In this document: positions 36,905 through 38,476 of the stretch, in pieces | How positions within the stretch are numbered: position 1 is the stretch's first letter | How the letters are laid out: each line of letters begins with the position of its first letter | Assembly: GCF_004345675.1 (NCBI RefSeq) | Contig: NZ_SLWU01000023.1 | Location: forward strand, 1 to 41,215 | Direction: 5' to 3' | Source: Caldanaerobacter subterraneus | GTDB taxonomy: Bacteria > Bacillota > Thermoanaerobacteria > Thermoanaerobacterales > Thermoanaerobacteraceae | Length of the DNA stretch: 41,215 nucleotides | Position numbers and translations under genes: made by a program | The notes under the pieces: model-generated | Seen by the model: only the letters and a program-made list of their open reading frames with translations | Told to the model about the DNA's origin: nothing | The model's database searches: none

Positions 36905-37570
36905 TCAGATTTCCCCTTTTGTATTCTTCCTTATTGCTTCATAAACTCTTTCTACAACTTCTTCCTCTGTAAGGTCAGTAGTATCGATTAGGATTGCGCC
37001 TTCTGGAATTGTCAAAGGAGAAGTCTTGCGACCTGAATCCAAACTATCTCTTTTTTTTATTTCTTCTAACACTTCCTCGTATTTTACCTCTGTACCTTTA
37101 TTTTTCAACTCTTCATAGCGCCTTCTTGCCCTCTCTTCCAGAGAAGCTGTAAGAAAAAATTTAAACTGGGCATCTGGGAGCACGACAGTGCCGATGTCTC
37201 TGCCGTCCATTACGACATTTTTTCCCTCTGCAATCTTTCGCTGTTTCTTCACTAGAATTTCTCTTACTTCAGGTATTTGCGACACAACGGAGACTTTTTG
37301 TGAAATGATGGGCTTTCTAATCTCCTCTGAAACATCTTCCCCGTCTAAGAATACCCTTTCTCCATCGAGAGAAATATCGCTTTTACGAGCTACTTCAACT
37401 ATTCTTTCCTCATCCTCCAGAGAAATGTTCTCCCTTAAAACTTTTAAAGTAATTGCCCTGTACATTGCACCTGTGTCTATGTAGGTAAAACCTAAAAGCT
37501 TTGCAAGTTTTTTTGCTACAGTGCTTTTTCCTGCCCCTGCAGGACCATCAATAGCTATTTTTACAGTCAA
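36905..37570 (-). CDS. cmk: cytidylate kinase
   Basis: A 221-residue nucleoside monophosphate kinase turning CMP and dCMP into diphosphates. It shows KIAIDGPAGAGKSTVAKKLA with the P-loop, YIDTGAMYRAIT, VVMDGRDIGTVVLPDA and the lid segment KKRDSLDSGRKTSPL. The start is probably TTG 37570, 6 bases after GAGGTG. The longest frame begins at GTG 37579, which is part of that ribosome binding site. Confidence 0.94.
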   Translation of the reverse strand: MTVKIAIDGPAGAGKSTVAKKLAKLLGFTYIDTGAMYRAITLKVLRENISLEDEERIVEVARKSDISLDGERVFLDGEDVSEEIRKPIISQKVSVVSQIPEVREILVKKQRKIAEGKNVVMDGRDIGTVVLPDAQFKFFLTASLEERARRRYEELKNKGTEVKYEEVLEEIKKRDSLDSGRKTSPLTIPEGAILIDTTDLTEEEVVERVYEAIRKNTKGEI

Positions 37571-37580
37571 GTTTATCACC

Positions 37581-37931
37581 TCAGGCCAAATCAGGTCTTA
37601 AATTTTTTGCTTCCTTAAGATATACATGTTTTACTTCCTGTTTTTCATCTATATTTGTAAAAATTGCCACTCTTATGCACTTAGGTAAACTTCCATTAAC
37701 CTCCATTTCCTGAAAACACATCATGGGAACGTCATCAAATTCCATCTCTTTTCTCACAGCCTCTGCTGGATACGCAGCAGTTAGGTCTTTTGTAGCACTA
37801 AAAAAAATGCTTATCAAGTTTTCTTTTTTTAGCCCGTTCCTTCTCATAATTTCTTCTATCAGAATAACCGTATCTTTAAAAATATCTTCTCTTGTGTTTT
37901 CAGTAGTGATAGCACCTCTTATAACCTTTAT
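37581..37931 (-). CDS. aroH: chorismate mutase AroH, with an apparent AUA start
   Basis: A monofunctional AroH-fold chorismate mutase (chorismate to prephenate, for Phe and Tyr). From ATA 37931 it reads IRGAITTENTREDIFKDTVI, IFFSATKDLTAAYPAEAVRK, PMMCFQEMEVNGSLPKCIRV and VYLKEAKNLRPDLA. This is the entire family sequence, with the active-site Arg of IRGAIT, the Arg of AEAVRK and the Cys and Glu of CFQEM. The first in-frame ATG (37847) would cut off 28 residues including the catalytic Arg. AAAGGAG at 37946-37940 is 8 bases before ATA 37931. No ATG, GTG or TTG lies in frame there. The total is 116 residues, normal for the family. Confidence 0.85.
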   Translation of the reverse strand: MKVIRGAITTENTREDIFKDTVILIEEIMRRNGLKKENLISIFFSATKDLTAAYPAEAVRKEMEFDDVPMMCFQEMEVNGSLPKCIRVAIFTNIDEKQEVKHVYLKEAKNLRPDLA

Positions 37932-37965
37932 AGCACATTCTCCTTTCTTCTGCTTCTTCAGTTTT

Positions 37966-37980: not shown

Positions 37981-38409
37981 CTATTTTAGTTTAACCATGC
38001 AGACTTTTTGTACATTTTTATCTACCCTTACCACTGTAGTATTTTGAGGCTCAATCACATTGTCACTTATGGCTGTTACTTTAAAGTGGAGAGGTTCGCT
38101 CTCTTTCGTCCCATCTATCTCCAAAATTTGGTTTGGCTTTACTTTAATTGTTATAGATTTCTTATAAAAATTAGAAACTGGCTCTCCATTTACCAGAATA
38201 TAAGAATTTGGGGCTTTGTCCTTTTCTACTACTTCAATTGTGACTTTTCCTTCTTGAGATAAATTAGAATCTAAAAAGACGTGAGCATCTTCTTTTCCAA
38301 TAAAAAGCTGGGCAATTGCAATGCTCAAAAGGCCCATCATTATAAGAATTGCCAGCACTACTTCGCTGTCTACATACCTTTTTAAAGTCCTTTTTCTCCT
38401 TTTCCCCAC
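37981..38409 (-). CDS. conserved small membrane protein of unknown function
   Basis: A 142-residue protein with a basic N-terminus (GKRRKRTLKRYV), one transmembrane helix (VVLAILIMMGLLSIAIAQLF) and an outside domain of predicted beta strands (KVTIEVVEKDKAPNSYILVN and ILEIDGTKESEPLHFKVTAI). The layout resembles single-pass proteins with an immunoglobulin-like extracellular domain; the family is not recognised. GTG 38409 is 7 bases after AGGAGG and is preferred over GTG 38415. It lies between the flavoprotein gene and aroH. Confidence 0.7.
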   Translation of the reverse strand: MGKRRKRTLKRYVDSEVVLAILIMMGLLSIAIAQLFIGKEDAHVFLDSNLSQEGKVTIEVVEKDKAPNSYILVNGEPVSNFYKKSITIKVKPNQILEIDGTKESEPLHFKVTAISDNVIEPQNTTVVRVDKNVQKVCMVKLK

Positions 38410-38476
38410 ATCCACCCCTCCTTTTCTAGTCTATATATTATGCCCTGTAAACAAAAAAATGCAGGAAAAATGGTTT

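Follow-up and report, generated by a model that had tools for sequence, protein, structure and literature searches.

The window analysed here is a 41,215-nt stretch of the Caldanaerobacter subterraneus genome. On its minus strand, at 37581..37931, lies aroH, a frame of 116 codons from an ATA triplet to the stop that encodes a monofunctional AroH-type chorismate mutase. Read from 37931, the frame matches TIGR01796 at 133 bits (cut-off 82), with residues 2-115 aligned to model positions 2-117, and PF07736 also matches the product. This full-length match above the curated cut-off, together with conserved IRGA and C-terminal segments, places the protein in the AroH type; 1xho and 1com are relatives in the PDB, and identity to orthologues of the family ranges from 74 to 61%. 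The initial annotation had read the AroH frame from ATA 37931, 8 nt after AAAGGAG, and its coordinates hold. The next gene after aroH is cmk (36905..37579, minus strand), which encodes a (d)CMP kinase (TIGR00017).

The putative promoter of aroH comprises a -10 box, TATAAT (37971-37966, minus strand), and a weak -35 element, TTAAAC (37994-37989, minus strand), separated by a 17-nt spacer. The -10 box was assigned from the sequence and from a TA-rich block conserved in relatives; it is absent from the output of a promoter consensus scan. Its position implies a leader of only about 28 nt, for which RNAalifold returned no pairs and Rfam no matches when a conserved leader RNA was sought. The gene upstream of aroH (37981-38415, minus strand) encodes 144 aa with one hydrophobic N-terminal segment and has no Pfam or NCBIfam matches; the aroH -35 region falls at the very end of this gene.

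Read on the minus strand, the start region consists of AGAAAGGAG (37948-37940), A, ATG, TGCT, ATA and then AAG GTT ATA AGA GGT GCT. The first element is the Shine-Dalgarno (SD) sequence, a 9-base match to the 16S 3' tail located 8 nt before the ATA (37931-37929, minus strand), the proposed start codon. The AAAGGAG of the initial annotation is present within it (37946-37940), the match to the 16S tail being longer than was first described. Sites of the GGAGNATGNNNTATWAA type occur at aroH alone in the Caldanaerobacter subterraneus genome. The ATG in the spacer (37938-37936, minus strand) is out of frame with aroH and opens a frame of 12 codons, MCYKGYKRCYHY followed by a stop, as was originally described. 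The stop-to-stop frame of aroH has 134 codons, and upstream of the ATA it contains no ATG, GTG or TTG. The initial annotation was correct for these three codons but had also excluded CTG, a single one of which is found in frame at 37961-37959; it has no SD and stands where transcription probably begins, about 5 nt beyond the -10 box. The first canonical in-frame ATG is codon 29 (37847-37845, minus strand), and a start there would cost the protein its first strand and the conserved IRGA, bearing out the earlier statement that this ATG would remove the catalytic N-terminus. Relatives have no Met at the codon-29 site.

In order to compare this region between species, aroH was sought in all available genomes of the family, order and class. 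The family sample consists of 20 genomes from three genera, among them Thermoanaerobacter wiegelii, Thermoanaerobacterium saccharolyticum and T. butyriciformans. An ATG, GTG or TTG in relatives had been named at the outset as what would speak against an AUA start; instead, the start position is ATA in 17 and ATT in 3 of the 20 genomes, which represent about seven distinct aroH start regions and hence few independent lineages, and ATG, GTG and TTG do not occur there. None of the family genomes offers a usable in-frame ATG, GTG, TTG or CTG at a workable position. Outside the family, aroH starts are ordinary: ATG in two genomes (G021 and G023) and TTG in the f4 genomes, some of which also have an in-frame ATG.

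The same survey bears on two simpler explanations. The genome of Caldanaerobacter subterraneus is a draft in 79 contigs, and the ATA could be thought to stem from faulty sequencing, or from the loss of a base in this genome alone. We assign this virtually no probability, since the same arrangement recurs in all 20 genomes, from different species and with several complete in one contig, which excludes a sequencing error. It is also very improbable that aroH starts elsewhere in its frame or is decaying. The CTG at 37961 and another CTG in G015 could serve as upstream starts, but the other 18 genomes lack one, and that of the window is located at the transcript start. In eight genomes of the Thermoanaerobacterium group (g2), moreover, an in-frame TGA stands two codons before the ATA, leaving TGT, CTT or CCT, and ATA ahead of the conserved AAA GCN ATT AGA; in these genomes, therefore, only ATA (or CTT/CCT or TGT) could start the gene. 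Relatives do not conserve the internal ATG, and a protein begun there would lack the catalytic strand. As for decay, AroH is intact in 19 of the 20 family genomes and is their only chorismate mutase. In the twentieth, G007, aroH breaks into two frames at about codon 80 (C7:21952-22292), by an assembly error or in a broken copy; this genome is flagged as 6% contaminated.

Changes were counted on a tree of 19 tips built from the aroH codons. The third base of the start triplet (AUW, where W is A or U) has undergone at least 3 changes, all between A and T and never to G or C. On the same tree, third codon positions of aroH average 2.9 changes, and 4% of them are unchanged. AUG is one substitution away, yet no lineage among the 20 genomes has it at the aroH start. 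The base before the triplet (T; 37932, minus strand, in the window) and the first base after it (A) show no changes, and together they form an invariant U-AUW-A context. The near-cognate triplet is thus conserved across species.

The same context is found at infC, which encodes IF3 and is the classical example of a gene with a non-AUG start. In the 19 of 20 family loci displayed, infC reads AGGAGGTGYGTATTT-ATT-AAC and thus appears to be AUU-started; its U-AUU-A equals the context of aroH, and in G011 the two genes share U-AUU-AAC. In general, the initiator tRNA offers A37 and U33 as possible pairing partners for a U at -1 and an A at +4, and such pairing can help a weak start codon.

The strength and spacing of the SD were assessed against a 16S 3' tail, ACCTCCTTTCTA, taken from two related genomes (G011 and G016), the tail pattern not having been found in the Caldanaerobacter subterraneus genome itself. 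A search with a 20-base pattern that allowed 3 mismatches likewise did not find the usual 16S 3' end in the g1 genomes G000 (that of the window), G009, G001 and G006, where it may be masked, absent from the assemblies or altered; g2 and g3 do have it. The match to the tail spans 8-9 bases in the window, G015, G011 and g2, and 5 bases in G009 and G006. Normal spacing was estimated from G009 and G016, with 400 kb of sequence per genome, by taking long ORFs that have ATG as their first start and a GGAG upstream; the mode from GGAG to ATG was 8 nt, and 7-11 nt were common. At aroH, the distance from GGAG to AUW is 8 nt, which equals the mode, and in eight g2 genomes it is 11 nt, which falls within the common range. 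Both the 11-nt spacing, less good than that of the other genomes, and the 5-base match in G009 and G006 count against initiation at AUW.

A further feature of the spacer complicates this picture. The out-of-frame ATG had been seen in the initial annotation, which missed its conservation: ATG-NNN-T-ATW is present at aroH in 20/20 family genomes, with 4 nt between ATG and ATW, so that an out-of-frame AUG stands seven bases upstream of every AUW. On the aroH tree, the three ATG sites have undergone no changes and the NNN sites 1, 3 and 4. The conservation of this AUG appears to exceed expectation, but it is suggestive rather than decisive, because 1 of 12 neighbouring genes is likewise unchanged at the same three sites across seven lineages, and an additional ATG lies within the SD spacer of about 11% of the GGAG-ATG genes sampled from G009 and G016. 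Direct initiation at AUW does not need a conserved out-of-frame AUG, and this too counts against it.

Translation that began at the conserved AUG would require a +1 shift in order to reach the aroH frame. The shift would have to occur within three codons (AUG NNN UAU W) and would yield a product beginning M-x-I-K or M-x-Y-K. Such a shift could be favoured when Tyr-tRNA runs short at the UAU, tying chorismate mutase to tyrosine supply. Three points favour it: the ATG is invariant across the 20 genomes but the codon after it is not; the product would have the usual AroH N-terminal length; and g1, g3 and G015 have AGGAGA-AUG-NNN-UAU, in which the SD lies 3 nt before the P-site codon as in prfB (AGGGGG, 3 nt, CTTT; PMC12421855). 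We nevertheless consider the frameshift improbable. Only 1 nt separates GGAG from the AUG, a spacing seen in 2/96 and 2/89 sampled genes of G009 and G016, or about 2%; in eight g2 genomes the gap is 4 nt. The would-be P-site codons (TGC, CCC, CTC, CCA, TCC, TCT and TTC) form no conserved slippery class, and full re-pairing is available for CCC to CCT only. A frame-0 stop (UAA) directly follows the UAU in just three genomes, eight g2 genomes have lost the prfB-like spacing through an insertion of 3 nt, and the UAU itself results simply from the T at -1 joined to AUW. In g1, g3 and G015, the aroH site resembles the prfB programmed +1 frameshift in having an SD-like sequence 3 nt before the would-be P-site codon; across the family it differs in lacking the CTTT slippery sequence, in having the stop in just 3/20 genomes and in having the spacing broken in eight (PMC12421855). 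Of the two options that the initial annotation had offered, an AUA start or a one-base error or frameshift, AUA/AUU initiation is the best remaining; error is eliminated, and a +1 frameshift is kept alive by the conserved AUG.

The conserved AUG might alternatively open a real overlapping mini-ORF (MxY-stop, MSYKSN-stop, or 12-27 codons) that competes or couples with AUW and so regulates aroH. Besides the conserved ATG, M-x-Y-stop frames that end directly at AUU in three lineages and a second, upstream GGAG 6 nt before the AUG in a seven-genome g1 haplotype point this way. We regard a functional mini-ORF as quite improbable, given that neither its length nor its end is conserved, that SD spacing is poor in most lineages and that spacer ATGs occur in about a tenth of sampled genes anyway. 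It is compatible with initiation at AUW and is therefore in part a refinement of that reading. A more speculative and rather unlikely proposal takes AUG-NNN-UAU-W as a regulatory decoding site, at which translation would start at AUG and then either shift +1 under Tyr-tRNA shortage or, through the mini-ORF, gate AUW. Aromatic supply or initiation factors would in this way tune the sole chorismate mutase, along with the fused CMP kinase in Thermoanaerobacterium.

Chorismate mutase is needed for tyrosine and phenylalanine synthesis. The AroQ type (PF01817) was found in none of the 20 family genomes, in a search whose control was positive in 13 of 14 reference genomes, and no second aroH copy was found; in each of the 20 genomes AroH is therefore the sole chorismate mutase found, and aroH its only gene. 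In 8 of the 9 g2 genomes (G010, G012-G014 and G016-G019), no stop closes the AroH frame, which continues into cmk and encodes a 330-aa AroH-Cmk fusion (L013:1501-2490, L015:1501-2490); in the two genomes tested, the fused ORF exceeds the cut-offs of both TIGR01796 and TIGR00017. The two genes are separate in G015, g1 and g3. A frame reading through from AroH to Cmk is also seen in G021 and G023, which belong to another family. Each genome has one strong cmk match, and no conserved internal cmk start with an SD was found in the fused frames. Since the AUA-started frame continues into cmk, the sole CMP kinase of most Thermoanaerobacterium appears to be the C-terminal part of an AUA-started protein and to depend on the aroH start.

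We propose that aroH of this family is translated directly from AUA or AUU, and that the near-cognate start is a conserved translational brake. We hold this to be the probable explanation, on the grounds that there is no canonical start, that AUW occupies the position in every genome, that SD spacing is at the normal optimum and that the context is that of the infC AUU. The strong SD would hold the ribosome and place AUW in the P site, where initiator fMet-tRNA would pair with AU and perhaps also with the flanking U(-1) and A(+4). Initiation would then proceed with Met at a fraction of the strength of AUG. Selection may keep the weak codon in order to limit supply of the only chorismate mutase, and the codon perhaps makes AroH supply dependent on IF3; in Thermoanaerobacterium, the same brake would limit the AroH-Cmk fusion. 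The out-of-frame AUG is probably too near the SD to initiate well, and if active it would act as a decoy or mini-ORF that lowers use of AUW.

If this is true, near-cognate starts on metabolic genes can be kept by selection, here across three genera, and the sole CMP kinase of Thermoanaerobacterium appears to hang on the same AUA. Gene finders restricted to ATG, GTG and TTG will shorten or miss such genes. The competing AUG also makes the locus a compact natural test of spacing versus codon identity in start choice. We found no literature on the starts of Thermoanaerobacter chorismate mutases, and a survey of conserved frame transitions mentions neither aroH, chorismate nor Thermoanaerobacter in its main text.

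Very few conserved AUA/AUU starts are known in bacteria, and most of them are linked to translation or regulation. The initial annotation had called AUA initiation very rare in bacteria, which is fair, although conserved cases are known at infC, pcnB, ccpN and cvfC1 (PMC13009471). Those with long SDs are infC (AUA) in S. aureus, ccpN (AUA) in S. aureus and B. subtilis, and cvfC1 (AUU) in staphylococci; two tested among them gave about 10-30% of AUG output in S. aureus (PMC13009471). In two Clostridium species, AUU, AUA, CUG and AUC reached 5-20% of AUG behind one 5' UTR and higher values behind a second, compared with 0.1-0.3% for near-cognate starts in E. coli (PMC9680021). Switches from AUG to AUU are exceedingly rare, with one seen among 61,358 reconstructed AUG starts (PMC5622118). 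Because conserved starts of this sort are already known, aroH would add to an existing kind, that of infC, pcnB and ccpN; what appears unusual is that it encodes a biosynthetic enzyme and carries a conserved competing AUG.

Like aroH, infC has an AUW start conserved across species, a strong SD and U-AUU-A, but infC is autoregulated by its own product, whereas AroH acts in metabolism and is not known to take part in start-codon choice, and the out-of-frame AUG belongs to the aroH spacer and not to that of infC. The AUU start of E. coli pcnB (Binns and Masters 2002, as cited in PMC13009471) similarly limits the amount of an enzyme, although in a different gene and lineage. Finally, ccpN and cvfC1 share with aroH a conserved AUA or AUU and a long SD outside the translation machinery, and ccpN is linked to metabolism, but as a regulator rather than an enzyme gene (PMC13009471). 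Their SDs extend toward the start codon, whereas AGAAAGGAG of aroH extends away from it, and their initiation has been measured (PMC13009471), whereas that of aroH is deduced from sequence.
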